From a virus, in IMG/VR virus record IMGVR_UViG_3300042397_000390, positions 1 through 25,496 of that record: 25,496 bases of DNA; one strand, given 5' to 3'. Below the pieces are notes generated by a model. The model saw only the letters and a list, made by a program, of their open reading frames with translations, searched no databases and had not been told where the DNA came from. Positions 37 through 21,523 of the stretch are shown piece by piece (position 1 is the stretch's first letter; every line of letters begins with the position of its first letter). The position numbers and the translations under genes are program-made.

Positions 37-1011
37 CTATTCTAAATAATTTCCAACGTATGATGGATATGTTTTATTTAAATATGTTAAATATGTTAGT
101 TTAACAATAGCTACATCATCTACCGTGCTAGTAAATTGTTCAGAAATTAATCTTGTATTAGAACTGTTAAAATTAAAAATCTGATTAGTGCTAGGATCAA
201 CCTCATTTTTCTGTTTAAATAATAAAGGAACTCCAGCTTCAGTTGTTATCGACACGCCATCTTCTGTTAGCAGTTCAGAATCTTCATAAACGATTCCATT
301 AATATTAATAGAAAAAACATTAAAAGCATTAGTTCTTAAAGCATCAGATTGTCTTCTTAATTCATAGTCATCAATTTCCATTGTTATATTTGTTAAAACT
401 TCAATGGGCCATTTAGTTTTAATTTGAAATGGAGAGGTTGAATTTGTGCGCCAAATCTCATGTTTATTTATTTGAGTAGATAAATCAAAGCTTACCACTC
501 TATTCGTAGTACTACCATCACATGTGATACTTATTGTACTTGGAAGAGGCACAACTGCTGGATTATCAGTATTGTAACCAATAGCATTTAATGATGATGC
601 ATCACCAAGCATTGTTGTATTTGTACTATCTATATATAAACCACTACCAATATCGCCATATACAGTTATACCATAGTTAGCAACAGGAGCTTCACCATAA
701 TTTACAGAATAAGAATAAGAAGTTAAACTTCCCAACTCAAAACCAAAAACTTTATCTGAATAATTTATAGATCCTCTTATAAAAGAATCAATACCCGTAT
801 ATTGACGCATAAAATCTTCTGCAATCATTGTTCTTGTTATCGAAAAATCTCCTTGAGGTATAGAAGCTACAACATTTTTAATAGTCCCTTGACCCATTAT
901 ATTAATAGGTCTTACTGTATTAGAATATGATCCATCTACATCGGTGACATAATCTAATTTACGACCACCAATGTAAACTGTTTGATCATATTGAGCTTGT
1001 GAGAATTTCAT
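37..1011 (-). CDS. Probable distal tail or tail-tip structural protein
   Basis: This 324-residue protein follows the tape-measure gene directly. Its ATG shares one base with the tape-measure stop (TAATG), implying translational coupling. The residues alternate hydrophobic and polar stretches, rich in Ser, Thr, Tyr and Asn, as expected of a mostly beta-strand virion protein. A YIGGRKLDYVTDVDGSY segment near the N terminus suggests a beta-sandwich start, and a DGVSITTEAGVPLLF segment near residue 250 looks like a further strand pair. There is no signal peptide or membrane segment. In siphophages the gene after the tape measure usually encodes the distal tail protein joining the tube to the tip, and that position is the main basis of the call. 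No family signature was recognised; a tip-associated adhesin is also possible. Confidence 0.5.
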   Translation of the reverse strand: MKFSQAQYDQTVYIGGRKLDYVTDVDGSYSNTVRPINIMGQGTIKNVVASIPQGDFSITRTMIAEDFMRQYTGIDSFIRGSINYSDKVFGFELGSLTSYSYSVNYGEAPVANYGITVYGDIGSGLYIDSTNTTMLGDASSLNAIGYNTDNPAVVPLPSTISITCDGSTTNRVVSFDLSTQINKHEIWRTNSTSPFQIKTKWPIEVLTNITMEIDDYELRRQSDALRTNAFNVFSININGIVYEDSELLTEDGVSITTEAGVPLLFKQKNEVDPSTNQIFNFNSSNTRLISEQFTSTVDDVAIVKLTYLTYLNKTYPSYVGNYLE

Positions 1012-4000
1012 TATCGTTTCTTAGTTGAATCTAATAATCCGCCAGTTCTTTGTTCGGTTGTTATAACATCAAGAACAACAGCTTTAATTCTATTACTTAA
1101 TTCTTTAGCATTTCCCTCTGTTCCTTCGTTATTAGAATCTGATTCTTGATCTCCAACTTTACCACTACTTGCATTAACAGTAATATTTATAGAAACATTA
1201 TTATTAGAAGTATTTGAAGTGTTAGACGGAGAGCTTGTTTCAGTATCAACCATTCCTCCATCTTGGAATCTTGCTACGCCAGAATTTATTTTATTTAATC
1301 CACCAACACCATATTTTCTAACTGCTCTACTATTTACAACATATTCGCCACCCGTTAAATAAGCTGGAATACTATCAGTTAAACGTGAACCATATGGTAA
1401 AAATCCACCTTGATTAAAACCGATTGCACCACCTTGTTGTTTTCCTTTATAAGGCGTGAATTCATATATAGATTGTGAACGACTAAAAGCAGCAGCAGGA
1501 TTTGTAAAATTTTCTTTAACAGCTTGATTAGCATAATCTTTACCCATTAAAGTAGCTGAAGATTTTCTAAATAAATTTCCTGAATTAATTCTTATTCCAG
1601 ACTGAGAAAATCTAGTTGCAGCAACTTCATTAAATGTTGATCTTGAAAAACCATCAGCAAAATTAGATTTTGTTAAAACAGAACCATTTGCTAATGTAAT
1701 TGAACCGCCACTGTCAATCAAAGATTTAGCATCAGCAAAATTTGTTACTTGTGTTGTTGTTCCATTAGACATAGATCCTGTTGCGCCCTTCAAATTTGCA
1801 TTTGCCATTGAACTATTTTTAGCAGCGCTAACAGCAGAAGATATGCCCATCGATACACCAGTACTAATTAATGTTCCAATAAATTGGTTTAATAAAGCTT
1901 TTCTTTCTGCACGTTTCTTTTCTTTAGCAGCTTCTTCTTCTCTAATTTTTTCTAAATAATTTTGGAACTCTGGACTTTGTTCGCGTCCATACATGCTTAA
2001 TCTTTCAAATGGAGCATCCATATTTACAGAAGCTGACATTGAACCGGGATCTCCACCTGTGGCAAAACGTGGAAATGCATTAAAATTTAATTGATCAATA
2101 GCTCTTGGACCACCAAGAGATTTGACAGCATTTCTATTTAATACGTATTCGCCATCTTCAAGCAATGCAGGATTCTTGTCTCCAGTTCTTCCGCCGCTGA
2201 TATACATTCCTTTTTGAGCGCGAATGAATCCGCCTCTTTGCTGTCCCGCTTCAATTGCTGATTTAGGTTGACCAAATGAAAAAGAGCTTCCAATACTTCC
2301 TACTATATTATTAGCAATATTGCGCAACATCATTCCTTGTATTTCTCTTAAGAAAGAAGCAGCTACTCCCATCAAAGCCGATTCAAGATCATCAGCTTTA
2401 TTAAGAGCAGCATCCATAGCTCCAACCAAACCATCTCTAAATAAACCTGGAATTTTTTGTCCAAAGTCATTTGCAAAAGTTTCTCTTTCTTTATTTATAT
2501 CATCAAAACCAGCACTCAATCCAACAGAAAAAGATTTAGCATCACGAACTCGTTTTCTTTCTTCTTCATTTCTTATTTTTAGCAATTCTGTTTCTCTTTT
2601 GGTATTATTTATTATATCTGCCTGAATTCGTTTCAACTGAGTTAAAGAATTATTTGCAGCAGTAAATTGCTCACCTTGACCATTCAATGATTTTACATAT
2701 TTTTCTTGTTCAGATATTGTTTGTTGTAATGTTTCAAGATTTTCTAAATTAGTCTGATTCAATAATGGAGATTTTCTTAATGAATCTGCTAATTGTTTAT
2801 TATTAGCAGCATTAGCGGTTGCTATTTCATTTGTTATACGAAGCCTTTCAGCATCTAAAACATTTGTATTAGCTGTTTCTAATTGATTTGCATTAAACGT
2901 TTGAATATTTCTTGCAGTCGCAGTTTCTCTATAACCAATGCGAAGCTCTGATTGTCTCTGCATACCCATGTTATAAAAATTCGAAACATCGTTTAAATAT
3001 CTATCTTCTCTTGCTTGTTGAATTTCAGAAGTTGTTTGTCTTCCAGATAGTATAATGTTTCTTTCCATCTGTGCAGAACCCATTTGAGAAGCTCTAATAT
3101 TTGCAGATCGAGATAGCTCTTCTCTTAAAATCGCTTGGCGACCACTTTCATCAAGATTCTTTTTTTCTCTAGACAAATTATCTGCTTTATCTTTTTCAAG
3201 AGCTTTTTGATCAGATATCATTTTCATTATTTTTTGCAATGTATCTGGTGGAATGGTCATTAATGGAGCTTCGTTTATAAACTGCTCTAGTTCCGCTGTA
3301 GTCGCTCCACCTTCTTTATTCGTAAAATCTTTTAATTTTTGAATTACTGTTGGATTGCTTCCCAATACAGGAGTACTTCTTATCTGATCAGCGAATTTTG
3401 TTGTAAAATCTAAGTTAGCTGTTTTTATTTCTCTATTATAAGCGTTTTGTAAATTACTCTTTTTTAATTCTGTTTGTGCTGTAATTGATTTTACAGGAGA
3501 AATTAAACCTTCTACTAAAGAATTTTCAAATGTTGTTTTTAATTCATTGAACTTATCAGCGAATTCTTCTTCAGCTAATGTTTGTCTAAGAGTGATAGCT
3601 GTAGAATTTAAAAATTTATCTATTTCTAAATATATATCTGAAGCCGATTTTTTTGCACTATTATTAGGAGCAGTTCTTTTGATTTCTTCTGCAACTTGTC
3701 TGGCATCTTGCATACTAGTTCCTAACTTAGAAGCTCTTATAGTTCCTTGTGTATTTTCAGCAAAAGCATTTCTAAATCCTTCAATAACTTGTTTTTGTTC
3801 TTCTGGTTTTAAAGATTTAAAAGTTTCTGATCTAGATAATTGTTGCTCTAAACCCCCACCTTTTGCTAAAAATGCAGCCCTTTCTTCACCAGTCTGTGAT
3901 GAAGTTATAGCGTCAGCTATATTTTTAAATCTTTTATCTACTAATGATAATTCAGCTATTGTTTGTCTTGCTGTATCAAATTGATCTTTAGTTAAATCGG

Positions 4001-7000
4001 ACGATGCAAGAACTTGTAAATTTCTTACTTTTTCTCTTTTATCGTTTGATATCTGAAGGTCTTCTAAAGTTTTTTCAACTTCAGCGGATGAAGCGTTTGG
4101 ATTTATTCCTGCTTTTATAGCGGCAGGTATTTTTAATAAATATTTTTGTCTTTCTTTTTCTGTTTTTTCTCGTTCTTTTGGAGTCAATCCGCCTTCTTCA
4201 AGTTTTTTTAAAGAACTTGTATAACCTTGTACTGCATTTTCAGCTTCTTTATCTTTTTGAGTTGCATTCTGAATTGATTTTGCAAAATCATCAACATTAG
4301 ATCTTGCGTTAATCATGGCTCCACCAAATCCAACCGCTGCCCCAACTGCTGCGCCTAATGCTGTTCCAAATCCTGGAATTATACTGCCTATCAATGCTCC
4401 AGTACTAGCTCCAGTTAAAGCTGCGCTAACACCAGTTGATCCCAATCTTTGACCATAACTCATTTCAGATCTATCTCTACCTTGTGCAATAATTGATTCT
4501 AACTGTCCAGCAATCATTGGAACCGCTATCTGAAAACCAACGTTTCCAGATAATTTATTAGTCATTGATGATAATGAATTCATCAAACCCCCACGATTTG
4601 CTGAAATTGTATTCGGATTTATAGAAGCAGGATTAACAGATCTTGAAGGCATTGGCTTTAGTGCCGCTGCTGCGGAAGCTGCGGATGCAGCAGCAGCTTT
4701 TTTCTGTGCATTTTGATTTTGCTGAGTAGCTTTAATTAAACCATTATTTGCCTCTGCAACTATCGTACTTGATTTAGTGCTTTGTTGTAAAGCTTGAGCA
4801 TTTTGTTGAACTGTATTTTGCAACATCGCCTGCTCTTGTGCTGATAAATTTATATCTCTTGTTAATCTAGAAAGAGCTTTATTCAATTCAACAAATAATT
4901 GTTGTTCTGAACCAGTTAAAGCTCCAAAATCCATACCTAAAGATTGTTTAGCATTTAAAGTCGCAAAATTTGGGACAAACCCTTTGCTCATTAATCCAGC
5001 GGCTTCTTGATTACGCATTGAATCATTCAAAGCATTTTTTAAACCACCATGGTCTGAGATAGCAGAAGCAAAATTTGGCTGACTGCTATTTCTAATAAAT
5101 GGAAAAGGTCCAGACTTAGTATCAAGAATAGCTTTATTACCACTCATACTTTGTTCAAGACCCATTACCGCTTGTTCATAAGCAAAGTTAGGTATAAAAC
5201 CACCATATACAGTATTTTTCTTAGCTTCGTATCTTCTTAATAAACCGTCTGTAACTTTTGTGAGTTTTGCGCTTATTGTAGGATTAACATTTGAATATTT
5301 ATCTTTAACAATTGATGCAGCGGCCATTTCAAATTCACTAAATTGTCCTGCTGGATTTTTACCAGTAGGATCAATAAATTTAGGCATATTTGATACCGCT
5401 ATCATCGAACTTACTTTTTTTGCCAATTCTGGATTTTCTTTTTTAAGATTTTCAAGTTTAGCATTCATGAATCCACTAATTGATCCAGAAATATTTTTGA
5501 AATCTTGCTTCAACTCCAACATGCTGTATGAACCATCAGCAATTTTATATAATAAATCAAAATCATTACTATTTGCTATATCACCTATAGGTTTATTTTT
5601 AAACCCAACTTCTGATGGTCTTATTACCTTTTTTGAACCTAAAGCTATATTTAATGCAGATCTAACAAAGTCTTCATGCAAATAAGAAAGCATATTGGCA
5701 TTACCTTTTTTAGCGTATTCGTGATTTAAACCTTTTCCATAAGTAGGAAAATCTCCCATTTTGAAAAGATCTGTATCACCAGCAATATCTTTATATTTAC
5801 TAGAATATTTTTTAAACCAAGGAATTCTTGCAGTACTCATTGGTACAGCAAAATTAGGAATAAAACCATTAAATTTATCGTAATCAACATTTACCTTATC
5901 TTTGGCAAACTCCATTATAATTCTTTGTTTTAAAGCTTTTGTTTGTTGCTTTTTGTTTAAGCCTTGCAAAAATACAGATTTAGAATCAGGAGCTAAACTT
6001 GATGCTCTACTACTAGCAATAGCAATCGGCTGATCTTTTCCTTTTCCTATTATTTCAGTAAAATTAGGATCTAAAATTAAATCTTTTCCATCAAAAAAAT
6101 AATCATCTGAATATGGATTTTTAAGTATATTACCATAATTCAAATTAAGATGTCTTATTACTTTTCCAATATTAGTCGCTGCATTATGTCCGGTGCCACT
6201 ATAAGCATCTGCAAATGTTTGTGATGAATAAAAATTTTTATTATACTCTTTAGCTGGATCAGATGGAACTTTAGGTACGCTTATAAAATCTATAGGCTTA
6301 TTGAACGAAGGAGACATTCCAATATCCATACCGACTTTATCTTCAAAAGCTCTTCCAATTCGTTTATTAAACAAAATTTGATCTTTTTTAGTTGCAAAAT
6401 TAGGTATAAATCCACCATACATATATGGATCAATACCAGTTTTATTTATAGAATTTTTTCTGTGTGCGCGACCAGCTTTTGATCCAGCAGGAGGATTAAT
6501 AAATGGTTGATTAAAACCAGAAACATATTTTGTTTCCTCCGCTGTATTCATGTAAGTGTTAGCTCCTACTGAGCTTGGAGCTTTTATAACCTTACCAGCC
6601 TTGTAACCACCCATGGCTGCACCCATTCTTTCAGACATTTCAGCAAATGCTGGAATATGACCACCAGCTTTTATTCTTGGCCCTACTTGAATGCCTCTAG
6701 CTCCAACGGTTGCTCCTTGAGCAGACAATAACGGAGCTAATTGTTGAGCTAATTGTAATTGTTGTTGATACTGTGCTGTTTGTAATTTTGCAAAATTTAA
6801 TAATGTTTGCGCTTGTGCAATTTCGTTACCTTGTTGTCCTTGAAGAGCCATTGATAACTGGCTTTGACCCTGAAGAATTGATAATATTGATTTTTCAATA
6901 TTCGCTCTTTTTTGAGCTTCTGTTGTTAAACCTAAAATAGCTGGCAAAGCTTTTGTAGCATCTTCAAATGTATTTTTAGCGACTTTAGCAATAACTGCAA

Positions 7001-8309
7001 ATGCAATAGCCAATCCCGGTCCAGTAATTACATTGCGAATACCTTTTAATAAACCATTAGCAAAAATAGACCCCGGACCTTCTCCCTCTAAAGTGTCATT
7101 TATATATTTTACGGCATCATTTACTGGAGATACTATAGCTTCAAATATTGGAGCAAACGTTACTTTACCTACATTATTAGCTAATTGCTGTAAACCTAAA
7201 CCTGTTTGAGTAGCGAGTGCGCTTAGAGTTTTATTTAATTTTTGATTTGCCAAATCAGCTTCATTTGAAGCTTTAGCTCCTCTTTCTAATGCTTTTGTAT
7301 AAGTTCCTTGAGTATTTGTTAAATCATTAACAATTCCTTTAAGAATGTTAACTTGATAAACACCAGCTACTTGTTCTGATAATTGAGCGCGTTGAGCGTC
7401 AGCAAGATCATTATATTTATTAGCAAAATTTTGTAAAATTTGAACGGCTGGTAAAATATTACCCTCGACATCGCGAACAATAATATTAAATTTTTCTAAC
7501 TGATCTAGAGTATCAGTTCTTTGTAGACGAGTAAAAATTGTTTTTAATGCGTTACCAATTACAGCGCCACCTCTTGCTGTACTTTGTTGAGCGGTTGTAA
7601 CCAAAGCATTTAGTTGATCGAAATCAACTCCAGCTTCTTGGGCTGCTTGACCTGTTCTTGACAAAGCTTCAGTTAAATCGCTTGCTGATACTGCGAAATC
7701 TTGTTCAACTGCTGCTAATTTATTAACAACTTGAGCTGTTGTTAATCCAGCTTTAGAAAATCCATTGATTGTAGAAGTCAAATCTTCAACGGCTTGTCTA
7801 GAACTTATTCCAGTTAAACGAACTAGAGTTAAAGCATCAGCAGTTCTTTTTAATGTTTCTTCTGTATTTAAACCTTGACGAGAAAATTCTAAAGCAGCTT
7901 TTGTAGCATCGTCAAAAGACGAAGCTGTTTGTTTAGATATAGTGAACAATTCACTTGAGAATTTTTGCAATCCTGAAGTTGATAAACCTAAAACACGATT
8001 AACATCTGTTAGAGATTTTTCAATTTCAATAGTTATATTAGCTAATTCTTTAAAAGTCTTTACTGCACCACCTAATACAGCAGTAGAAGCTCCGAATGCA
8101 AGTACGCGAGCATTAGAAGCTTTCAATGCAGATTCAAAATCAGCTAAATCACTAGTTATTCTGCCTAAAGGTTGAGAAAAACTTCTGGGATTAATCTGTA
8201 AATTTAATTGATTTTGGCTTGCAAATCTAGCATTATATGCCGCCACACCTTGCGATATGCTCTGAGCTAATGCCGATTGACTCGCTTGGACGTTAATCTG
8301 TACTGACAT
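1011..8309 (-). CDS. Tape-measure protein with embedded cargo-like domains
   Basis: This 2432-residue protein sets tail length during assembly and is normally ejected with the DNA. Residues about 88-340 resemble the phage tail tape-measure core (PhageMin_Tail/TIGR01760 type), with repeated amphipathic helices around IEKSLTDVNRVLGLST and an SRQAVEDLTSTINGFSKAG stretch. A hydrophobic helix lies near residues 420-455, a Gln-rich coiled region near 490-535 and a Gly/Ala-rich membrane-like segment near 1290-1335. Long charged coiled coils follow to about 1980. Two tail-type repeats with GEYVLN (2053-2058) and GEYVVN (2321-2326) lie near the C terminus. Residues 549-1116 are unusual: GFIPNFA motifs separate inserts of about 175 and 214 residues, listed separately. 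A GTGTAA box sits 11 bases before the ATG. The tape-measure role is confident; the function of the inserts is inferred. Confidence 0.93.
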   Translation of the reverse strand: MSVQINVQASQSALAQSISQGVAAYNARFASQNQLNLQINPRSFSQPLGRITSDLADFESALKASNARVLAFGASTAVLGGAVKTFKELANITIEIEKSLTDVNRVLGLSTSGLQKFSSELFTISKQTASSFDDATKAALEFSRQGLNTEETLKRTADALTLVRLTGISSRQAVEDLTSTINGFSKAGLTTAQVVNKLAAVEQDFAVSASDLTEALSRTGQAAQEAGVDFDQLNALVTTAQQSTARGGAVIGNALKTIFTRLQRTDTLDQLEKFNIIVRDVEGNILPAVQILQNFANKYNDLADAQRAQLSEQVAGVYQVNILKGIVNDLTNTQGTYTKALERGAKASNEADLANQKLNKTLSALATQTGLGLQQLANNVGKVTFAPIFEAIVSPVNDAVKYINDTLEGEGPGSIFANGLLKGIRNVITGPGLAIAFAVIAKVAKNTFEDATKALPAILGLTTEAQKRANIEKSILSILQGQSQLSMALQGQQGNEIAQAQTLLNFAKLQTAQYQQQLQLAQQLAPLLSAQGATVGARGIQVGPRIKAGGHIPAFAEMSERMGAAMGGYKAGKVIKAPSSVGANTYMNTAEETKYVSGFNQPFINPPAGSKAGRAHRKNSINKTGIDPYMYGGFIPNFATKKDQILFNKRIGRAFEDKVGMDIGMSPSFNKPIDFISVPKVPSDPAKEYNKNFYSSQTFADAYSGTGHNAATNIGKVIRHLNLNYGNILKNPYSDDYFFDGKDLILDPNFTEIIGKGKDQPIAIASSRASSLAPDSKSVFLQGLNKKQQTKALKQRIIMEFAKDKVNVDYDKFNGFIPNFAVPMSTARIPWFKKYSSKYKDIAGDTDLFKMGDFPTYGKGLNHEYAKKGNANMLSYLHEDFVRSALNIALGSKKVIRPSEVGFKNKPIGDIANSNDFDLLYKIADGSYSMLELKQDFKNISGSISGFMNAKLENLKKENPELAKKVSSMIAVSNMPKFIDPTGKNPAGQFSEFEMAAASIVKDKYSNVNPTISAKLTKVTDGLLRRYEAKKNTVYGGFIPNFAYEQAVMGLEQSMSGNKAILDTKSGPFPFIRNSSQPNFASAISDHGGLKNALNDSMRNQEAAGLMSKGFVPNFATLNAKQSLGMDFGALTGSEQQLFVELNKALSRLTRDINLSAQEQAMLQNTVQQNAQALQQSTKSSTIVAEANNGLIKATQQNQNAQKKAAAASAASAAAALKPMPSRSVNPASINPNTISANRGGLMNSLSSMTNKLSGNVGFQIAVPMIAGQLESIIAQGRDRSEMSYGQRLGSTGVSAALTGASTGALIGSIIPGFGTALGAAVGAAVGFGGAMINARSNVDDFAKSIQNATQKDKEAENAVQGYTSSLKKLEEGGLTPKEREKTEKERQKYLLKIPAAIKAGINPNASSAEVEKTLEDLQISNDKREKVRNLQVLASSDLTKDQFDTARQTIAELSLVDKRFKNIADAITSSQTGEERAAFLAKGGGLEQQLSRSETFKSLKPEEQKQVIEGFRNAFAENTQGTIRASKLGTSMQDARQVAEEIKRTAPNNSAKKSASDIYLEIDKFLNSTAITLRQTLAEEEFADKFNELKTTFENSLVEGLISPVKSITAQTELKKSNLQNAYNREIKTANLDFTTKFADQIRSTPVLGSNPTVIQKLKDFTNKEGGATTAELEQFINEAPLMTIPPDTLQKIMKMISDQKALEKDKADNLSREKKNLDESGRQAILREELSRSANIRASQMGSAQMERNIILSGRQTTSEIQQAREDRYLNDVSNFYNMGMQRQSELRIGYRETATARNIQTFNANQLETANTNVLDAERLRITNEIATANAANNKQLADSLRKSPLLNQTNLENLETLQQTISEQEKYVKSLNGQGEQFTAANNSLTQLKRIQADIINNTKRETELLKIRNEEERKRVRDAKSFSVGLSAGFDDINKERETFANDFGQKIPGLFRDGLVGAMDAALNKADDLESALMGVAASFLREIQGMMLRNIANNIVGSIGSSFSFGQPKSAIEAGQQRGGFIRAQKGMYISGGRTGDKNPALLEDGEYVLNRNAVKSLGGPRAIDQLNFNAFPRFATGGDPGSMSASVNMDAPFERLSMYGREQSPEFQNYLEKIREEEAAKEKKRAERKALLNQFIGTLISTGVSMGISSAVSAAKNSSMANANLKGATGSMSNGTTTQVTNFADAKSLIDSGGSITLANGSVLTKSNFADGFSRSTFNEVAATRFSQSGIRINSGNLFRKSSATLMGKDYANQAVKENFTNPAAAFSRSQSIYEFTPYKGKQQGGAIGFNQGGFLPYGSRLTDSIPAYLTGGEYVVNSRAVRKYGVGGLNKINSGVARFQDGGMVDTETSSPSNTSNTSNNNVSINITVNASSGKVGDQESDSNNEGTEGNAKELSNRIKAVVLDVITTEQRTGGLLDSTKKR
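1332..2153 (-). repeat. Two C-terminal GG..PA.L..GEYV.N repeats of the tape measure
   Basis: Two copies of one motif lie about 268 residues apart. Each has a GG pair, then Asp, then PALLEDGEYVLNRNAV (first) or PAYLTGGEYVVNSRAV (second), then a Gly-rich turn and a short FxxxGG end. This kind of motif is common near the C termini of tape-measure proteins. Each copy is preceded by GGFI or GGFL, which resembles the start of the GFIPNFA motif found in the middle of the protein. The range covers the two GEYV cores. Confidence 0.75.
5205..5846 (-). other. Tape-measure insert 2: PD-(D/E)XK nuclease-like domain
   Basis: Residues 822-1035 lie between two GFIPNFA motifs. They hold a helix with Glu (LHEDFVRSAL, E879), then a strand with Asp (NDFDLLYKI, D918), then 13 residues, then a strand with LELKQ (E932, K934). 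A helix follows and then a hydrophobic strand SSMIAVSN. This order (helix E, strand D, strand ExK, helix, strand) is the core signature of the PD-(D/E)XK nuclease fold, with all expected catalytic positions occupied. The motif is seen directly; the fold is inferred from spacing. A processed or ejected nuclease is one possibility, and a fold reused as a structural spacer is another. Confidence 0.55.
5868..6392 (-). other. Tape-measure insert 1: possible degenerate nuclease-like domain
   Basis: Residues 640-814 lie between two GFIPNFA motifs. The start, a helix RIGRAFEDKV (E656) followed by a PIDFI strand (D674), looks like the first half of a PD-(D/E)XK core. Where an (D/E)xK strand would be expected the protein reads ADAYSG (D701, Y703), so the lysine would be missing. 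The rest is mixed helix and strand with a Lys-rich end. If the reading is right, the domain kept the fold but lost its lysine. It could equally be an unrelated small domain. Confidence 0.3.
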
Positions 8310-8332: not shown

Positions 8333-9319
8333 TTACTCAACACCCATTAATTTCATTAAATCCTTCATATCTAAACTGCCACCTTTCTTTTTAGCTTCTT
8401 CGGCCAAACTTACATTTTTTGTATTTCCTTTATCCATATTAATGTATTTATAATCTTCTTTTGTAGCTCCAACAATAGATGTAGCTTGATTATCTTTTTG
8501 TTGCATTTTTTCTTTAGCTTTTTCATTTGCATTTACATAATCTATTAACTTATCTGGATCTTTCTTATAATTTTCTGGAATCTTATCATTTGTAGACAAT
8601 ATATTCTTAAAATATCTTGCATATAATATTAAACGCAACTGATTATATGTAAGATTTATAATAGGTTTTCCATAAAAATGTATAGGATCTTCACAATATG
8701 GCATGTAATAACTAAAAAAATCTTCTAAAACTAATTTCTGAATTTTAGAATCAGAAAAATTATTTAATATTGAATTATATATTTTAATAAGTTCAGATAA
8801 GTTATCTGAATTTATATTATCAAACTCTTCTTCTAGATAAAAAAGTGTATCTAAATTTTTATCTTTATATATTGTAAATTTAAGAAACTCTTCAGTTACC
8901 CTTTGTTCGGCGTAATGTTCGCAAGTATTACCAAGATAAGAATTTCTTTTATTTTTTAATTCATTTATTTTAAGCAAAGAGTCGTTTAGCTGTTTATTTA
9001 ATATATCTATTTGAGATTTAAGATAAGTGTTTTTTTTCTGCTCGGTAATCTTATGTAAAAAAACTTCTTCTTGTTTTATGGCTCTCTCATCAACATCTGT
9101 CCAATAACCTTCTTCTTTTAAATTTATTAAAGACTCTTCAATAGTTGGTATACCACGATTTTTAGCTTCTTTTAAATAATCCTCTTTTGACTCATCAAGT
9201 AAAACTTGATCAGAAATATTTATATGTTTAAAATATAATTTGCCAAAGCTACAATTTATTAAGGTGTAGCCTTGGCAAATATCTCTGAAACTTTTTTTAT
9301 AATCTAAAGTGTAATCCAT
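8333..9319 (-). CDS. Second protein of the tail assembly chaperone position
   Basis: This 328-residue protein lies immediately upstream of the tape measure. Its ATG shares one base with the stop of the preceding gene (TAATG). A central coiled coil of Lys, Asn, Leu and Glu (about residues 90-130, including QIDILNKQLNDSLLKINELK) is followed by mostly helical, acidic and aromatic segments. The C terminus is Lys-rich and ends in KGGSLDMKDLMKLMGVE. There are no transmembrane segments. In long-tailed phages, two genes between the tail tube and the tape measure usually encode assembly chaperones that coat the tape measure, often joined by a programmed frameshift. Here they are separate genes in the -1 relation with coupled stop/start. 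The role is inferred from position; no family motif was recognised. Confidence 0.5.
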   Translation of the reverse strand: MDYTLDYKKSFRDICQGYTLINCSFGKLYFKHINISDQVLLDESKEDYLKEAKNRGIPTIEESLINLKEEGYWTDVDERAIKQEEVFLHKITEQKKNTYLKSQIDILNKQLNDSLLKINELKNKRNSYLGNTCEHYAEQRVTEEFLKFTIYKDKNLDTLFYLEEEFDNINSDNLSELIKIYNSILNNFSDSKIQKLVLEDFFSYYMPYCEDPIHFYGKPIINLTYNQLRLILYARYFKNILSTNDKIPENYKKDPDKLIDYVNANEKAKEKMQQKDNQATSIVGATKEDYKYINMDKGNTKNVSLAEEAKKKGGSLDMKDLMKLMGVE

Positions 9320-10077
9320 TATTGTCCAGCAAGAATCTTATCAAATTCTTCCTTATCGATCTTGCCAGTAAAGAACCAAAAACTAATAATACTAGCTAAT
9401 TTATTATAAGTCTTAGTGTATATCTCATCTTCCTTTTCCTCTAAAGAATAAAGATATTCTTCTTTTTCTTCTAGAGTTTTTCCAGGAAATATTGGAAGAT
9501 AATCAACTTGATTCTTACTTGGATCTTTATAAAAACTTAAACTTAAAACATACCATAGAATTGATCTATTTTGTGCTTTTGTATCTGCTGTGTGATTAAA
9601 AAGATTTAAATAACTAGTTTCTCTTTCTACGATTTCTCTTCTTACATCTATCAATTCAGATTGTTTTAATGATATTAAATCTTTATCTTCTTGAGTTCTT
9701 TCCGATTCAGGCTTCAAGTTAAGATTTACTATCTCAATTTGAAGTTGACCATATTTTTCATATCCAGCGTTCAGTTCGTCTGAATCTTTTTGATTTACTA
9801 ACCCACCTGTATCACTATATTTATTAAGCAACATCGCTTTCGTTAATACGCCTTGCTTGATACATTTACTCATTTCGATAGAAAACACCATTTCAGCTTC
9901 TTGAATTTGCTTTCTATTTGGTTGTTTTATTAAAATTTCAACAGGAATTGTCTTATCTACCATTTCTGAAATAGTGCGCTCTTTTTCAACACCGTTTTCA
10001 TCAGTATACTTTTCTTGTCTTTTTTCTGTAATTTTTGCGACCTTTTCGATATTAAATGTGTAAATGTACTTAGACAT
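9319..10077 (-). CDS. Probable tail assembly chaperone (first of two)
   Basis: This 252-residue soluble protein is rich in Glu and Lys. It begins with a short beta-like segment (SKYIYTFNIEKV) and continues with charged helices. One reads ISEMVDKTIPVEILIKQPNRKQ and is interrupted only by short turns; a second long helix contains KQSELIDVRREIVERE. The C-terminal FWFFTGKIDKEEFDKILAGQ is compact and helical. Its place between the tube gene block and the tape measure, and its pairing with an overlapping downstream gene, fit the first tail assembly chaperone of long-tailed phages (lambda gpG position). No slippery heptamer was seen near its 3' end. It begins a minus-strand group whose only upstream space is the 40-base divergent region 10078-10117. 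Confidence 0.5.
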   Translation of the reverse strand: MSKYIYTFNIEKVAKITEKRQEKYTDENGVEKERTISEMVDKTIPVEILIKQPNRKQIQEAEMVFSIEMSKCIKQGVLTKAMLLNKYSDTGGLVNQKDSDELNAGYEKYGQLQIEIVNLNLKPESERTQEDKDLISLKQSELIDVRREIVERETSYLNLFNHTADTKAQNRSILWYVLSLSFYKDPSKNQVDYLPIFPGKTLEEKEEYLYSLEEKEDEIYTKTYNKLASIISFWFFTGKIDKEEFDKILAGQ

Positions 10078-10117
10078 ATTTATAATATTGTATTTTTAAT
10101 GTGTTTAAATTCTAATT
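10078..10117. promoter_or_regulatory. Forty-base divergent intergenic region
   Basis: This gap separates divergent genes starting at 10077 (minus) and 10118 (plus), so promoters for both directions should lie here or inside the flanking coding sequence. Plus-strand signals are TATAAT at 10081-10086 and GTGTTT at 10101-10106, the latter ending 11 bases before the plus ATG. On the minus strand, ATACAATATT (10093-10084) also occurs upstream of the terminase gene (25492-25483). No convincing -35 element is present. Confidence 0.45.
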
Positions 10118-10573
10118 ATGGGAACTAGTTTATTAACTTCTACTGAAAAAGCAGCTTTGGCGGCTGTCTTTGATGATATACATGAAACTTTTGCCCGTGA
10201 AATAACTGTTTTTAAAGAAGCCTCTACAGTTGTTATCATAACGGACCCTAATTATAATCCGCTGTATAAGACCGCTGGTCAAACTACTTCAATAATAAAT
10301 ACACCTGTTTATAAAACATTCAAAGCAAGAATTCAATATCAAGATGACGTTGGTAAAAAATATTGGAGTGAACAAGGATTAAATTCTCAAATAAAACTAG
10401 AAGCTGTAGTTGGAACTGTAAGATTAAAGATCGATCAAGACGCTTATGATTACGTCAAAGACGCTCGCCGTTTTGATGTTGACGGTAAAAGATATGTTCT
10501 TAATTCTACATTTAGACCTCATGGCTTATTTGATGTACAATATTATACATTATATCTCAAACCTGATCCCTAA
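10118..10573 (+). CDS. Probable head-tail stopper (head closure) protein
   Basis: This 151-residue protein is the first gene of the plus-strand block. An N-terminal helix (STEKAALAAVFDDIHETFAR) leads into a beta-rich body. It includes EITVFKEASTVVIITDPNYNPLY, then KARIQYQD, KLEAVVGTVRLKID and a final FDVQYYTLYLKP. The size, the helix followed by a small beta barrel and the gene order (before a neck-type gene, a tail completion gene and the tube) match head-closure proteins that plug the portal-adaptor channel. The assignment is from architecture and context rather than a family signature. The following gene starts two bases after its stop, so the two are co-translated. No Shine-Dalgarno sequence precedes the ATG, but a GTGTTT box sits 11 bases upstream. 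Confidence 0.55.
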   Translation: MGTSLLTSTEKAALAAVFDDIHETFAREITVFKEASTVVIITDPNYNPLYKTAGQTTSIINTPVYKTFKARIQYQDDVGKKYWSEQGLNSQIKLEAVVGTVRLKIDQDAYDYVKDARRFDVDGKRYVLNSTFRPHGLFDVQYYTLYLKPDP

Positions 10574-10575
10574 AA

Positions 10576-11175
10576 ATGACAAAACTTGATTCAGCAGATC
10601 TAAATCAAATTGCCGAACAGTTAGTGAAACAAAACAATTATATACAATATGTTTATTCACAACTTCAAAAACAAATTGAAAAAATTAAACAAGAAATTAT
10701 TGAAGAGTTTGAAAACCATCCTGTCACGCAAGAAATAAATGGCGGAATAACTGCCAGCAATATTTCCAATACGCTTGATGGTGTTACAAATCTTTATTCA
10801 TTTATAGGATTTGAAAGTGGCGACAATCCACTAAATCCTATTCGTGAAGAATTAAAAAAAATTAATTTAAAACATACTACAAATAGTAAAGGCGAATTGG
10901 TCTTCTCTGTTGAATTTCCAACTGCCAAAGATATTTTTAAAGTGACTCCCATGCCTTGGGCAACTGGACGCAGTTGGTCACAAGGCATAGAATTAGGAAT
11001 ATCAGGATTGGGATATTATATTAAAAAAACTAAGAATAGCAGATCTGGATTAGGCATTCAATCTCAAACACCCATAAGAAATGGAGTTAGATTTAAGAAT
11101 ACAAAATACATATCATATCTTATAAATTCATACACAAAAAAAATTCAAGATTTATCTAAGGATACAATTTTATGA
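10576..11175 (+). CDS. Probable neck or tail-joining protein
   Basis: This 199-residue protein has an N-terminal coiled coil (about residues 8-48, ending EIIEEFENHPVTQEI). A conserved-looking segment follows, with NISNTLDGVTNLYSFIGFESG and NPLNPIREELKK. Strands and a basic segment (KKTKNSRSGLGIQSQT) lead to a C-terminal amphipathic helix. The HPVTQEI...NLYSFIGF pattern is reminiscent of neck-region proteins in environmental phages, and the position corresponds to HK97 gp10-like tail-joining proteins. The stop overlaps the next start by four bases (ATGA), showing coupling. The protein is soluble, without signal or membrane segments. Assignment rests mainly on position. Confidence 0.45.
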   Translation: MTKLDSADLNQIAEQLVKQNNYIQYVYSQLQKQIEKIKQEIIEEFENHPVTQEINGGITASNISNTLDGVTNLYSFIGFESGDNPLNPIREELKKINLKHTTNSKGELVFSVEFPTAKDIFKVTPMPWATGRSWSQGIELGISGLGYYIKKTKNSRSGLGIQSQTPIRNGVRFKNTKYISYLINSYTKKIQDLSKDTIL

Positions 11176-12032
11176 TCCCAGCATTTTCACATAATATAAC
11201 AAATAGTTTTTTCTTATGGTTTGATAATCATTTAATGAGAAAAGCTGAAGCTTTTCAAACATATACTACAAAATTATATAATTATACTGATGCGCGACTT
11301 GGCGATAATAAAGTTGTTTATGGTAGTCCATATAAACAATGGGCATATGACAATAGTGTAGCAGGAATTTCTATACCTTCTGGATTTTTAATTAATAATT
11401 CTTTTGTACCAACTGGAACGAGCGGCATGTATATTGATTTCGACAATGGGCGCATAGTTTTTAATAGTGGAGTTTCTAAAAATCTAAATATAACTGGTAC
11501 ATATACTGTAAAAGAAATAAATAGTTACATAACAGATCAGCCTGAAGATAATTTAATAATCGAAGGAAAATATGTTACTAATAGTAGATTCACAGTTAGT
11601 GAAACATATGTGCCTCCATATAATCCAGTTACACCTTGTGCATTTATATCAATAGAAAATATAGATAATAATGGATTTGCGCTTGGTGGTGAAGACGAAA
11701 CAAGAGTACGAATGAAAGCGGTTGTGTTTGCAGAAAATCTTTATCAATTAGACGGTGTTCTAAGCGCATTTGCCGACACATATAACACTAATTTCAATAT
11801 CATACCAATGACTAATCACCCATTGGGTGAATATAATAATTTAAAGACGGGATTGTATCCTACTGGTTATAATTATATTGATGTCAACAAACAACATACA
11901 GATAAAAAATGCTACATATATGACGTAACAACATCTAAAATAAAAGATGATGTTGTAAAAGAACTTAATCCAATTCTTCATATTGGATTTATCGATTGGA
12001 ATATAGGCAACATTAGATACCCAAGATTATAA
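11172..12032 (+). CDS. Probable tail terminator/completion protein
   Basis: This 286-residue protein lies between the neck-type gene and the tube gene. An N-terminal helical segment (FSHNITNSFFLWFDNHLMRK) precedes a beta-rich middle typical of virion proteins, with GMYIDFDNGRIVFNSG and a YTVKEINSYIT strand-turn. The C-terminal half mixes strands and helices (RVRMKAVVFAENLYQLDGVLSAFADTY). Genes in this slot normally cap the tail tube and join it to the head. At nearly twice the usual terminator length it may carry an extra beta domain (about residues 60-150), which could be surface-exposed. It overlaps the previous gene by four bases, and a short AAGGA lies upstream within that gene's end. No direct family signature was recognised. 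Confidence 0.45.
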   Translation: MIPAFSHNITNSFFLWFDNHLMRKAEAFQTYTTKLYNYTDARLGDNKVVYGSPYKQWAYDNSVAGISIPSGFLINNSFVPTGTSGMYIDFDNGRIVFNSGVSKNLNITGTYTVKEINSYITDQPEDNLIIEGKYVTNSRFTVSETYVPPYNPVTPCAFISIENIDNNGFALGGEDETRVRMKAVVFAENLYQLDGVLSAFADTYNTNFNIIPMTNHPLGEYNNLKTGLYPTGYNYIDVNKQHTDKKCYIYDVTTSKIKDDVVKELNPILHIGFIDWNIGNIRYPRL

Positions 12033-12090
12033 TTTCACAAAATAGCCCATACACTGTAAAAATAATTAACATTTTAACAAATAAAAAAAT

Positions 12091-13389
12091 ATGGCAAGAA
12101 ATCGCGTAATTTATCAAAGTCAGGCTTTATACATAGCTCCAAACAGCACTGGTATTCAAGTCAGTGGCGCTACAATAGCTGAAAACGCAGTAGCTACATC
12201 AGCTTATACAACTGGCCAATTAGCCAGCGGTATAAGCCTTCTTTATAAACTTGACAGAGTACAAAATTGTAATTTCAATTTTACAATTAATCGTCAAGAC
12301 ATCAACGAACTAGGTCAACTAGCTCGTATTGATAGTATTGTAAATGATACTCCAACAGTAGGCTTGGATTTCAGTTATTATGTTACTGATGGCTTAAATG
12401 AAAGATTGATGGGATTCAATTTTTCTGGAAGAAGTTCAACCGCTGATCTTCAATGCGTTAGTAATGCTAGTGCCATTTCTGGTTTAATGATAGATACTCA
12501 AGGTAATAATTATTATATCATAACCGTAGATGAAGGTGAGGATGTTGTAGGTGCTAATTTATCTAGCGCTAGTAATTCTGTTATTGCTGTAGGCAATGGA
12601 TTTGTTACAGAATATAGTCTAGACGCTTCTGTTGGAAACATTCCAACAGCCAGTGTAACTGTTGAAGCTTTCAATATAAAGAGTGATGTAAATAAAACTC
12701 AATTACTTGATAATGGCTCAACTGTTTTAACTGGAAGATCTCCTGCAATAGATTATACTCAAACCCCAGCAACTCGTTTAACAGGAGATAATAGAGGATA
12801 TGTTATCGGTACTGGAAATAATACAACAGGAGTAAGTTCGGTTTCTGCTCTCCGTCCTGGTGATATTGTTCTTTCTTTACCAGTTAACGATGGATTTACT
12901 GAACTAGATGAAGCTGGAAATAAAGCTCATATTCAAAGTTTTGCTTTTACTATTCCTCTAACTAGAACAGTTCTTCAAAGACTTGGAAATGTATTCGGTT
13001 TCGCTCGCGTTTTAGAAGTTCCATTAAATATGGATATAACTATTAACGCTATTGTTAATGAACTACAAGAAGCTGATATCTTTGATCAGCTTTGCGGCGC
13101 TGCTGATAAGAAAAACTTTACTGTAACTCTAAATCAATGCGCTGATGTTGGCGGAACAGTTACTCCAAAAATAGTATATCAAATTAAAGGTGCTATTTTG
13201 AGTTCTGAAAACTTCTCAACTGATATTGGTGGAAACCAAACTGTCGATTTGACTTATAGTGTTCAAATCGGTGGAGCTAATGATACAAACAACGGTATCT
13301 TCATGAGTGGTTCTTATACAACAGGCGCTGCGCTAACAAGTGGTGTTCTTAATAACTACTATAAGCTTGGCACTGGAAAGAATTACTAA
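12091..13389 (+). CDS. Major tail tube protein
   Basis: This 432-residue protein is the last gene of the plus block and is followed by a strong terminator. The protein is beta-rich with few charged clusters. It contains NFNFTINRQDINELGQLARIDS, the kind of strand-helix-loop segment seen in tube subunits, and the strands FDLSYYVTDGL-like and FAFTIPLTRTVLQRLG. The C-terminal half (VDLTYSVQIGG, GIFMSGSYTTG) resembles the closing strands of a tube fold or an appended Ig-like domain. Placement before the chaperone/tape-measure genes (once the inversion is undone), size and composition support the tube call. A 58-base gap (12033-12090), rich in A, precedes the ATG and lacks a Shine-Dalgarno sequence. 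A sheath subunit is the main alternative, but no second tube-like gene is present. Confidence 0.65.
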   Translation: MARNRVIYQSQALYIAPNSTGIQVSGATIAENAVATSAYTTGQLASGISLLYKLDRVQNCNFNFTINRQDINELGQLARIDSIVNDTPTVGLDFSYYVTDGLNERLMGFNFSGRSSTADLQCVSNASAISGLMIDTQGNNYYIITVDEGEDVVGANLSSASNSVIAVGNGFVTEYSLDASVGNIPTASVTVEAFNIKSDVNKTQLLDNGSTVLTGRSPAIDYTQTPATRLTGDNRGYVIGTGNNTTGVSSVSALRPGDIVLSLPVNDGFTELDEAGNKAHIQSFAFTIPLTRTVLQRLGNVFGFARVLEVPLNMDITINAIVNELQEADIFDQLCGAADKKNFTVTLNQCADVGGTVTPKIVYQIKGAILSSENFSTDIGGNQTVDLTYSVQIGGANDTNNGIFMSGSYTTGAALTSGVLNNYYKLGTGKNY

Positions 13390-13400
13390 AAATAACTAAC

Positions 13401-13433
13401 AAAAAACCCCAGTCGAAAGACTGGGGTTTTTTT
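13401..13433. terminator. Bidirectional Rho-independent terminator
   Basis: An 8-bp stem (CCCCAGTC, 13407-13414, with GACTGGGG, 13419-13426) closes a GAAA tetraloop. It is flanked by six A on the left and seven T on the right, so it can work in both directions. It sits between the convergent ends of the tube gene (13389) and the adaptor gene (13436) and should insulate the plus-strand block from the minus-strand operon. Confidence 0.93.
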
Positions 13434-13435
13434 AT

Positions 13436-13948
13436 TTATGGATTTCCATATCCATACGGATAATAAAAATATCCAGACCCAGTATATATTGGCGAACCAT
13501 CTTCACCAGCTACTTGCACAGGAACGGCTTGATAAATATTATAACTTGTAACTAACCTTTCCATTTCTTCTCTTGCATCATTTGCAAGTCCACGATATGT
13601 TTTGGCTAATTCATTTTTATTTGTACGAGTAATCATACTATCTCCTTCGCGCAAAGTTACGAAATCAACCGAACTATCAATTCCTCTCAATACCTGACGA
13701 GTCTTTTTTGTATAAAACTCGTATAAATACATTTGTTTATATATTGCTCTTTCTTCTTGCTGAAAAGCTCCTGTTGGTATGAAATTAGAATCTTGTACAG
13801 AATACTGGCTATATATTTTAGTATTTAATAAACCAACATTATTAGCAAGCCAACCTGAAATATAATAAAACTGAGCATATCCGCTATCATAATCAAATTC
13901 ATTTGCGAATATTTCGTCAGCTAAATCATGTACGCTGTAAGTTACCAT
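13436..13948 (-). CDS. Probable head-tail adaptor (connector) protein
   Basis: This 170-residue, mainly helical protein has aromatic helices (DYDSGYAQFYYISGWLANNVG, AIYKQMYLYEFYTKKTRQVLR) and a long charged C-terminal helix (KNELAKTYRGLANDAREEMERL). Helical-bundle proteins of this size bind under the portal as adaptors (gp15/gp6-type). The C terminus, GSGYFYYPYGYGNP, is an aromatic-glycine tail that may be disordered or used for docking. The gene is last before the convergent terminator and lies next to the plus block that starts with the other connector-type genes, which supports the role. A GTGTAA box lies 9 bases before the ATG. Other head-tail connector roles cannot be excluded. Confidence 0.55.
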   Translation of the reverse strand: MVTYSVHDLADEIFANEFDYDSGYAQFYYISGWLANNVGLLNTKIYSQYSVQDSNFIPTGAFQQEERAIYKQMYLYEFYTKKTRQVLRGIDSSVDFVTLREGDSMITRTNKNELAKTYRGLANDAREEMERLVTSYNIYQAVPVQVAGEDGSPIYTGSGYFYYPYGYGNP

Positions 13949-19191: not shown

Positions 19192-19212
19192 ATTATTTGA
19201 TAGTTAAATAGA

Positions 19213-19890
19213 TTAGACAACGTAAGATGTGGTGCAGTCAAATTGAACGAGAGCGTATTTACCAGTAGTAGTACCGGCAAAATAATCACTCTTACCATTC
19301 TGAGAAACACGTTGACCAGTGCCAAGAATACGGCCAATGATGCTTGTGGTTCCAGTGAGTGGTGATACTGCTGAAGCGGCAAGACCAGAAACCTTACCAG
19401 CGTTAGCAGAGATAATGAGGTGGTTATTTACTGTCATGCTGCCATCAACCCAGTCGATAGCTGTATCAGCCAATGTAAAGATACCGCGAGTAGCTACAGG
19501 AACAGCTTGTCCAGTGAGAACGGCTTGTAGTTCGGCTCTCTTTACAGGATTATAAAGAAGTCTTTCGCCATTTTCATCGGTGGCTAGAGTCTGATTCAAA
19601 GTCATGCCAAGAACTGGAGTACCAGCGGTGGCAGCAGTGAACTGCAAAGGTACAGCAGGGTATTGAGCAGCACCCAAGAAAGGATAATCTGCCTTACCAA
19701 GTGTATTTGTAATATCGGTAGCTGTGTATTGAATTGGATCTAGATCCAAGTTACCAGCGGATACCTTGACGAAAACACCGGCTGAACCATTACCATTTGT
19801 AGATGGGGTGGCATCAACAGTGTCGCTTGCGAACATGTTGACAACATCAACGTCGCTATACTGTCTGAATGGATATAATCTTAGTGACAT
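19213..19890 (-). CDS. Probable capsid decoration protein
   Basis: This 225-residue protein lies between the protease/scaffold and the major capsid gene, the place of lambda gpD-type decoration proteins. It is poor in charge and rich in Ala, Thr, Gly and Val, as beta-rich virion proteins are. Features include PFRQYSDVDVVNMFAS near the N terminus and a C-terminal GRILGTGQRVSQNGKSDYFAG followed by a final strand. Codon use matches the capsid gene, supporting high copy number. It starts MSLRLYPF after an AT-rich leader, and only 21 bases separate its stop from the capsid ATG. A head fibre or minor capsid role is possible. Confidence 0.6.
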   Translation of the reverse strand: MSLRLYPFRQYSDVDVVNMFASDTVDATPSTNGNGSAGVFVKVSAGNLDLDPIQYTATDITNTLGKADYPFLGAAQYPAVPLQFTAATAGTPVLGMTLNQTLATDENGERLLYNPVKRAELQAVLTGQAVPVATRGIFTLADTAIDWVDGSMTVNNHLIISANAGKVSGLAASAVSPLTGTTSIIGRILGTGQRVSQNGKSDYFAGTTTGKYALVQFDCTTSYVV

Positions 19891-19895
19891 ATATT

Positions 19896-21512: not shown

Positions 21513-21523
21513 AATATTAGATT

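Follow-up and report, generated by a model that had tools for sequence, protein, structure and literature searches.

The tape measure gene of an uncultivated phage carries in its middle a series of modules, each of which opens with the short peptide motif GFIPNFA. The phenomenon is larger than the sequence-only reading of this DNA had seen: in many uncultivated phages, modules are set off by the motif, and these phages exchange whole modules there. Since the swaps between related viruses fall cleanly at the motifs, they suggest that the genes encode a payload which travels in the tail of the virus and can be exchanged. The window, that is, the whole stretch of 25,496 nucleotides that was analysed (positions 1 to 25,496 of the IMG/VR record IMGVR_UViG_3300042397_000390), contains the following features.

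1011..8309, minus strand: tape measure protein gene, 2432 aa
7362..7940, minus strand: PhageMin_Tail (PF10145) domain, residues 124-316, E=3.9e-27
6414..6662, minus strand: entry cassette (block family 3), residues 550-632, with GHIPAFA at its start; 28 of 337 blocks; aligned with relatives
6642..6662, minus strand: motif copy 1, GHIPAFA, residues 550-556
6393..6413, minus strand: motif copy 2, GFIPNFA, residues 633-639
5868..6413, minus strand: cargo block A (block family 5), residues 633-814; 9 blocks; 6 sequences aligned
5847..5867, minus strand: motif copy 3, GFIPNFA, residues 815-821
5202..5867, minus strand: cargo block B (block family 2), residues 815-1036, with E879, D918, E932 and K934
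5181..5201, minus strand: motif copy 4, GFIPNFA, residues 1037-1043
4983..5201, minus strand: exit cassette (block family 0), residues 1037-1109; 78 of 337 blocks; aligned with relatives
4962..4982, minus strand: motif copy 5, GFVPNFA, residues 1110-1116
1014..4961, minus strand: C-terminal part of the tape measure, residues 1117-2432

By its N-terminal domain, the gene product is predicted to belong to the phage tail tape measure proteins. All 11 of its PHROG matches are tape measures (10 of them at E<=1e-8), and PhageMin_Tail is also found in 41 of 45 non-redundant regions, reduced from 72, that precede the first motif of motif-bearing ORFs. Region 4962-6665, which corresponds to residues 549-1116, had been described as holding five GFIPNFA-type motifs, and these are present at the sites given. 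Their exact starts are residues 550, 633, 815, 1037 and 1110; the starts at 549, 632 and 1036 had been counted from one glycine earlier (GG...). A further partial copy had been proposed, and QPNFA is indeed present at residue 1078, but it was dropped as a delimiter, since its place within the exit cassette is fixed and relatives have QPTFSSA, QPSFASA or QPNFAAA there. A total of 1316 residues follow the last motif in the window's tape measure, so that the modules are internal.

The motif is not expected by chance, with a mean of 0.0 copies in 2,000 shuffles of the tape measure protein. A pattern scan of IMG/VR found it in at least 119 stretches, compared with 8 for the reversed pattern; among the matches listed (119), the motif lay inside an ORF of at least 250 aa in 109, and at least two motifs lay within one ORF in 102. 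Removal of ORFs contained in others reduced 159 ORFs to 121 motif-bearing ORFs or fragments, of which 114 hold at least two motifs. Seven loci (L001, L002, L004 and L014-L017) were left out before the blocks were clustered, and single-linkage clustering was dropped because its cluster 0 was chimeric. The replacement clustering gave 337 blocks in 80 families, 36 of them with more than one member, and some odd blocks, one of 10 residues, remain in these families.

Several comparisons show that the motif is where these genes come apart. In 40 of 40 loci a motif stands at either end of block B, whose neighbours, besides ORF ends, come from 10 block families on the left and 8 on the right. In the cargo zone, 1359 of 1413 homology ends lie no more than 30 nt from a motif, where chance would put 15%; for disjoint pairs the average is 66 of 70 ends, where chance would put 11. 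Close relatives share the N-terminal part, while modules are swapped, inserted or lost at the motif. L172 and L176 have distantly related modules at one position and unrelated modules at the next; identity collapses at one motif and recovers at the last, and the exchanged modules are flanked on both sides by DNA of 94-97% identity. The C-terminal parts after motif copy 5 also diverge between many close relatives. The locus L003 encodes a tape measure identical to that of the window, and its C-terminal part is near-identical to that of L010 (96.0% and 97.8% at the nucleotide level over the two stretches compared), and yet the cargo of the two differs. The earlier proposal that domains are exchanged at the motif between conserved flanks is therefore borne out, since homology ends at the motifs instead of running collinearly across them.

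Every example comes from a metagenome contig, and chimeric contigs joined at a short repeat could in principle produce such a picture. However, the motif DNA is only about 20 nt long, its copies differ in sequence, and the same motif layout recurs under different metagenome ids (four for L172-L175 and five for L166-L170), which leaves an assembly artefact scarcely credible. A second explanation sees in the motif a site of recombination at the DNA level, or the trace of selfish, homing-endonuclease-like inserts that are neutral for the virion. PD-(D/E)XK-type signatures, such as those described below, can belong to mobile nucleases and would fit this explanation. Within a gene, the DNA of motif copies also differs a little less than codon usage would lead one to expect (2.33 differences observed, 3.11 predicted), with about 1.7 identical pairs expected, and because of this a DNA-level role in recombination keeps some small probability. 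On the other side, of 129 pairs of exact motif copies within one gene, only 5 share identical DNA, and the modules are diverse in kind. Blocks begin with the motif and show no intein-type ends by eye, for which reason inteins were dropped as well. We consider a DNA-level or selfish origin highly improbable, and the motif is best read as a module delimiter that marks module ends at the protein level.

The sequence-only reading had also placed a PD-(D/E)XK nuclease in block B, and residues E879, D918, E932 and K934 are located as it stated. In alignment A2, E58, D97 and K113 (equivalent to E879, D918 and K934) are invariant in 14 sequences and column 932 is E or D; E879, D918 and [E/D]932-x-K934 are kept in relatives down to about 29% identity. 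The E/D/[ED]xK order is present in 26 of 26 distinct block B sequences, 22 by the family's own regex and four by eye, these four being missed only because their spacing is shorter than the regex minimum. Residue order and conservation thus stand behind a putative nuclease, whereas the fold predictions are of low confidence and have no convincing match. The prediction from A2 (14 sequences) reached a pLDDT of 41.7 and that from A4 (18 sequences) a pLDDT of 57.0 and a pTM of 0.63. For the latter model neither Foldseek (best matches AAA-ATPase chains, E 0.13 and worse) nor VIA-align (best Z 3.3) gave a convincing match. The third VIA-align row was 3fov, which we take to be a UPF0102/PD-(D/E)XK-fold protein, with Z 2.9 over 79 residues (model 63-164), tied with noise. 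The lack of a restriction-endonuclease-like chain among the matches of such a predicted model is an absence and not a refutation.

A PDB profile search returned no match for family 4 and nothing convincing for family 2 (six matches, E 0.48 and above), and hhalign of 35 block families, families 1, 2 and 4 included, against Mrr_cat (PF04471) found no significant match. The latter comparison used a 20-sequence alignment, reduced from 27 loci after three of 30 had been removed by hand, with reversed and column-shuffled controls. In it, the family 4 match spans 10 columns, and families 5 and 17 lie above the controls over 15-16 columns (E 0.017 and 0.037), with the family 5 alignment sitting on G-R-A-F-E. 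Members of the PD-(D/E)XK superfamily are often undetectable by profile similarity. Families 4 and 1 match each other at 97.7%. Block B matches family 1 with a probability of 75% over 37 columns, and we do not claim homology of block B to families 1 and 4, the E879 helix pairing upstream of the family-1 F-E. Block A follows the pattern G-R-x-F/Y-E ... I/V-D-F ... F-x-D-A-H/Y and has D-A-H or D-A-Y in place of the usual (D/E)xK lysine in 6 of 6 aligned sequences (A3). Its hhalign match to family 4 is weak (E 8e-4, probability 24%), and block A is possibly a PD-(D/E)XK relative lacking the usual lysine. The window's two modules are thus PD-(D/E)XK-like by signature only.

Modules of relatives carry a wider set of signatures. 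A regex of the PD-(D/E)XK type fits 32 of 32 family-1 and 17 of 17 family-4 sequences, whereas shuffled ones gave 2.6 and 1.3 fits, the regex having been written after the alignments were seen (the family 1 alignment held 28 of 29 non-redundant members and that of family 2 the members below 350 aa). The same regex fits 4 of 26 sequences of family 2, whose helix motif differs. With families 1, 2, 4, 17, 20 and 24 assigned by us to a nuclease-like class, such a family is present in 37 of 42 tape measures that have a long N-terminal part and the exit cassette last, and in 19 of 24 of the same type in the pattern-scan set, which was not chosen via block B. Over all pattern-scan ORFs that hold a block, a set that includes many fragments, the count was only 54 of 88. 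One module (L116, family 10) scored 38.3 bits against the Pfam SNase model, for which the cut-off is 21, and by this gathering score is assigned to the staphylococcal nuclease family. Other Pfam matches among modules include GNAT (2e-5) and HATPase, a GHKL ATPase (3.8e-5). Three assignments made by eye were rejected, having no matching Pfam match at E<=1: ADP-ribosyltransferases (L012, L054), kinases (L037, L054) and a HAD phosphatase (L046).

Tape measures serve as length rulers, and the blocks might simply be structural spacers for tail length or stiffness, their motif-bounded exchange being ordinary mosaicism. Most modules match no known family, as this explanation would have it. Among 121 non-redundant blocks, reduced from 194 of at least 95 aa, Pfam gave 20 families at E<=0.01, most of them weak. 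NCBIfam gave 8 families, all weak, and PHROGs at least 25, the strongest being of unknown function (6.5e-12). One block matches a tape-measure PHROG family at 0.0017, and therefore some blocks may be structural. However, the SNase match over the Pfam cut-off and the GNAT and GHKL ATPase matches are not what spacers would show, nor are the invariant E, D and K columns found in diverse block families, since spacers need not conserve catalytic residues. We regard spacers as an improbable account of the array as a whole.

A virion-borne, exchangeable multi-effector array in the tape measure, with the motif as its delimiter, is probably the right explanation. From the N-terminus, the order is a tape-measure domain, the entry cassette, the modules, the exit cassette and the C-terminal part. 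This cargo bay holds one to six exchangeable modules, mostly of 60-600 aa, and each starts with GFIPNFA preceded by an A/S/G-rich linker. We infer that the modules are probably virion-borne enzymes, nucleases above all, with acetyltransferase-, ATPase- and peptidase-like domains as well, which would ride in the tail tube and leave it together with the tape measure and the DNA. Once delivered, they could act early in the host, on host DNA, host regulators, anti-phage defences or rival phages. GFIPNFA itself would be either a flexible hinge or dock for threading and refolding, or a cleavage site that frees the module.

Between these two mechanisms the evidence is divided. If GFIPNFA is a proteolytic site, the polyprotein would be cut during assembly or after ejection, releasing separate effectors. 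The recurrence of the motif at module starts is consistent with this, as are A or S at position -2 (366 of 456 instances), A as the commonest residue at -3 (138) and the richness in A, S and G of the ten preceding residues. Zincin-like peptidases have been proposed to process multidomain effectors (in the part of PMC5512222 cited here), and HExxH occurs in the cargo zone of four ORFs, two of them alike. However, an HExxH motif alone does not make a zincin, the remaining ORFs among the 121, including the window's twin L003, have none in their cargo zones, and the hydrophobic, proline-containing core of the motif would fit a binding peptide equally well. Cleavage is a tentative reading, somewhat short of an even chance. 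Alternatively, GFIPNFA would stay uncut and serve as a hinge or dock, fastening the linker to the tail tube, the tape-measure coils or a chaperone for packing and threading of the modules. Its conservation at the protein level argues for this, with N at position 5 in 448 of 458 instances, a count to be read knowing that the search patterns themselves demand G, P and F and favour N; so do the linker-like composition upstream and the presence of the motif in the entry and exit cassettes too. Against it, motif-to-motif spacing ranges from 10 to 1249 residues, and therefore no fixed tube-ring register is possible. We place the uncut dock or hinge not far short of even; some other role for the motif is rather unlikely.

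Among known systems, several invite comparison. Some tape measures have built-in muralytic domains, a cell-wall hydrolase that aids entry, and they resemble the present protein in having an enzyme, here putative, within the tape measure; they differ in that the array here is exchangeable and made of diverse enzyme-like modules. Polymorphic toxins combine a constant delivery part with toxin-like modules exchanged by recombination, the toxin being C-terminal and paired with an immunity gene. The analogy drawn earlier with these toxins holds for a constant part and variable, exchanged modules, but not for their position: the modules occupy internal slots rather than the C-terminal end, and conserved entry and exit cassettes flank the variable region.

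The closest known kind of multi-effector array is best sought among the polyvalent proteins of phages and conjugative elements, which, in the part of the article considered here, combine unrelated enzyme domains in one polypeptide, have shuffled architectures and are thought to travel into the host alongside the DNA (Iyer et al. 2017, PMC5512222). Their domains include RNases and zincin peptidases (PMC5512222), as well as ART and GNAT domains (as told in part of PMC7824862); the zincin-like metallopeptidase domain is common in them but not universal. Group-wide, different modules described here have nuclease, GNAT and ATPase matches, which would make them comparable; the window's own two modules, both PD-(D/E)XK-like by signature, need not differ in activity. 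Polyvalent carriers are linked to MuF or to the portal, or are large proteins whose genes lie beside virion genes, and the term 'tape measure' does not occur in the portion of the text drawn on (PMC5512222). In contrast, the carrier here is a tape measure, and its modules open with one motif between entry and exit cassettes. Sle1-type effectors of contractile injection systems are related to tape measures and are packaged in the particle, according to the part of the account cited (Nagakubo et al. 2026, PMC13277306). They share with the present proteins a tape-measure-like carrier and exchangeable functional domains. They belong to a bacterial nanomachine, however, and have a coiled-coil N-terminal part and a C-terminal functional domain (same part of PMC13277306), whereas here a phage has several internal modules and a delimiter motif. 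Domain exchange in phage proteins was surveyed by Smug et al. 2023 (PMC10684548), who, in the sections cited, found tape measures mosaic by sequence and could not confirm genuine recent mosaicism in them; L172 and L176 look like a case of it.

If the array is what it appears to be, the tape measure, usually a ruler and DNA conduit, would also be a payload carrier in widespread uncultivated phages, and clear recent domain exchange in tape measures would add what was left unconfirmed in the cited part of that survey (PMC10684548). The delimiter motif would then be a handle for finding injected phage effectors from sequence alone, and the carriage of enzymes into the cytoplasm by tape measures would become directly testable. 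We give an even chance to the wider idea of a general effector-delivery platform, in which a few-copy multi-enzyme chain in the tail tube, with a seven-residue delimiter and trading of cassettes, would enter the host upon ejection and be cut or unfolded at the delimiter, so that the arsenal would precede phage gene expression.

Isolate phages gave no match at E<=10 to residues 549-1116 and none at 1e-3 to the cargo region of L080. The string 'gfipnfa' was not found in the open-access papers searched, among which there were no preprints, and 'ipnfa' occurred as a substring only in unrelated texts. The exit cassette was absent from 396 of 396 other Flavobacteriaceae genomes, the only one of the 397 drawn that held it being L177's own. 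In a scan with one peptide pattern, the cassette was found in two MAG contigs labelled Flavobacteriaceae. The whole tape measure protein matched 174 records, chiefly Gordonia, Bacillus and Lactococcus phages, and the best 40 of these 174 matches span 11-15% of the query.

The ORF at 1011..8309 on the minus strand (2432 aa) encodes a tape measure protein, identical to that of locus L003, with matches to PhageMin_Tail (E=3.9e-27) and to eleven tape-measure PHROGs. A GFIPNFA-type heptapeptide opens each of its modules and occurs five times, against a mean of 0.0 copies in 2,000 shuffles of the protein. The sequence-only reading had counted five copies plus a partial sixth; the five are confirmed, and the supposed partial copy lies inside a conserved cassette.

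Motif copies and layout of the tape measure protein (residues)
550, motif copy GHIPAFA
633, 815 and 1037, motif copies GFIPNFA
1110, motif copy GFVPNFA
550-632, entry cassette
633-814, block A
815-1036, block B
1037-1109, exit cassette
1110-1116, final motif, followed by the C-terminal part

The C-terminal part of this tape measure (1011-8309) also carries, twice, a GG...GEYV-N-x-AV type motif (residues 2026-2080 and 2293-2355) of a kind present in many tape measures; one copy closes with PRFATGG, a faint resemblance to the delimiter.

A degenerate DNA pattern encoding GFIPNFA matched at least 119 stretches of IMG/VR, compared with 8 for the reversed pattern. Among the 119 stretches listed, the motif lay within an ORF of at least 250 aa in 109, and 102 had two or more copies in one such ORF, with nine the highest count seen. 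When the sequence ahead of the first motif was scanned, 41 of 45 non-redundant regions matched PhageMin_Tail; the four exceptions must include L110, in which the domain lies beyond the upstream edge of the scanned stretch, and L031, where the locus end cuts the ORF and no PhageMin_Tail was seen. No Pfam family was matched in the Pfam scan by L103 and L093. Removal of contained ORFs left 121 ORFs or fragments, 114 of them with two or more motifs, and their 337 blocks fell into 80 families, of which 36 have at least two members. Two cassettes bracket the cargo, one at the entry (family 3, ~83 aa, 28 blocks) and one at the exit (family 0, mostly 71-77 aa, 78 blocks). In the 42 ORFs that end their blocks with the exit cassette and have 480 residues or more ahead of the first motif, the cargo comprises 1 to 6 modules totalling 222 to 1481 residues. 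Two MAG contigs with long motif-bearing ORFs and the exit cassette (L177 and L178) are labelled Flavobacteriaceae, which is only a hint of the host.

The proposal that domains are swapped at the motif is borne out by nucleotide comparison of all pairs, in which 1359 of 1413 ends of cargo-zone homology lay no more than 30 nt from a motif centre; random positions would give 15%. Since all-pairs comparisons share members and are not independent, the count was repeated with disjoint pairs, giving a mean of 66 of 70 ends near a motif against 11 for random positions (200 random sets). The cleanest case of exchange is L172 against L176, which share 95-97% identity over three modules and the part that precedes the first motif. 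Their next two modules differ, one being 70% alike by global alignment and the following one belonging to another family; identity is 96.8% past the last motif and 93.8% further on. In 60-nt windows, identity drops at one motif and returns at the last. The otherwise diverged fourth blocks of these two loci share the end SPLAAFRNE right before the next motif, so some exchange junctions may sit slightly upstream of it.

Some cargo modules are more alike between relatives than the remainder of the gene: between L008 and L012, identity is 98.9% in module 5 and 87.5% in the part before the first motif, which fits modules that travel. The C-terminal part directly past the last motif is 60-75% alike in most close-relative pairs compared; between L010 and L003, whose cargo modules differ, the two stretches of it that were compared reach 96.0% and 97.8%. 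Relatives of block B, collected with peptide patterns that left out the motif, came from 40 viral loci, some of them near-identical contigs. A motif lay 8 or 14 residues upstream in 40/40, and the next followed after 37-44 residues in 39 and after 199 in L171; the neighbours belong to 10 families on the left and 8 on the right.

When exact GFIPNFA copies of the same gene are paired, 5 of 129 pairs are identical in DNA and the mean is 2.33 differences per 21 bases, which argues that the motif is kept as a protein sequence; the copies are nevertheless more alike in DNA than the gene's codon usage predicts (3.11 differences expected). The ten residues upstream of it are richer than module interiors in A (15.4 vs 8.2%), S (11.3 vs 8.6%), G (11.3 vs 9.1%) and K (11.8 vs 10.1%). 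The motif could act as a hinge or dock, or as a cleavage site.

Pfam at E<=0.01 recognises few of the 121 non-redundant blocks.

Pfam matches of the blocks
GNAT acetyltransferases, two members, best 2e-5
Staphylococcal nuclease, 2e-9 (38.3 bits, over the cut-off of 21)
Cytidyltransferase-associated region, 6e-8
GHKL ATPase, 3.8e-5 (24.2 bits, slightly below the cut-off of 25)
AAA_30, two members, 0.0013
ParB_N, 0.0069

The remaining Pfam matches at this threshold were taken for chance. PHROGs added a few block matches: the best were to families without a known function, and one was to a tape-measure family. An NCBIfam scan of the blocks added no firm match. Four ORFs, two of which are alike, have an HExxH in the cargo zone. 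By eye, judged by known motifs, modules of L010/L012 and L054 look like ADP-ribosyltransferases, those of L046 and L172 like HAD phosphatases, and those of L037 and L054 like kinases; Pfam supported none of the five such modules scanned.

Families 1 (33 blocks) and 4 (17 blocks), the most frequent in the cargo, match each other in profile comparison at 97.7%. In both, G-x-x-F-E, a D and K residues occupy columns that vary little or not at all, and the alignments show (D/E)-x-K. A PD-(D/E)XK-type regular expression, composed after these sequences had been seen, fits 32/32 and 17/17 of them, against 2.6 and 1.3 after shuffling. Block B had been read as a nuclease of this type from E879, D918, E932 and K934, all of which were found at these positions. 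In 14 sequences, down to ~29% identity, E879, D918 and K934 never change and position 932 holds either E or D, and the order of these residues is kept in all 26 distinct family sequences (22 by regular expression, 4 by eye). The better model (pLDDT 57.0, pTM 0.63) places E879 in a helix and E932-L-K934 in a strand followed by a helix and another strand, with D918 in a very-low-confidence stretch; this predicted layout is compatible with the PD-(D/E)XK superfamily and is not evidence by itself. Foldseek and VIA-align gave the model no convincing match and the profile was negative against Mrr_cat; on balance, block B is probably a PD-(D/E)XK nuclease. Six sequences of block A share G-R-x-F/Y-E, D-F and F-x-D-A-H/Y; the block aligns weakly to G-x-I-F-E / F-D-F / A-D-A-K of family 4 and is perhaps a catalytically changed or dead cousin.

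Families that we classed as nuclease-like are carried by 37 of the 42 tape measures, and by 19 of 24 in the set selected independently of block B, which suggests nucleic-acid attack as a core task. Tape measures sit in the tail lumen and participate in genome injection, according to two papers (PMC13190303, PMC13277306); the cargo modules would ride with the tape measure, get into the cell and act immediately. Among known systems the polyvalent proteins come closest; the paper that describes them does not mention tape measures (PMC5512222). Sle1-type effectors show that, in an injection machine of bacteria, a tape-measure relative can bear domains that are exchanged (PMC13277306), and a survey of phage domain mosaicism saw mosaicism in tape-measure sequences and could not confirm genuine recent cases (PMC10684548). 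By comparison with these, the system is best classed as polyvalent-type cargo with a new carrier, the tape measure, and a common delimiter.

Elsewhere in the window, nine structural-region proteins (37-1011, 9319-13948, 18013-23560) had no PHROG at E<=0.01, which points to a little-known phage lineage; TerL was matched. GC rises to 0.506 at 16001-17000; the other 1-kb windows lie at roughly 0.28-0.43.

Other genes of the window
10118-13389, plus strand, four genes amid an otherwise minus-strand structural region
14528-15496, minus strand, glycine-rich protein (322 aa) adjoining the repeat protein
15502-17094, minus strand, collagen-like repeat protein of GTSGSSGSSG type (530 aa)
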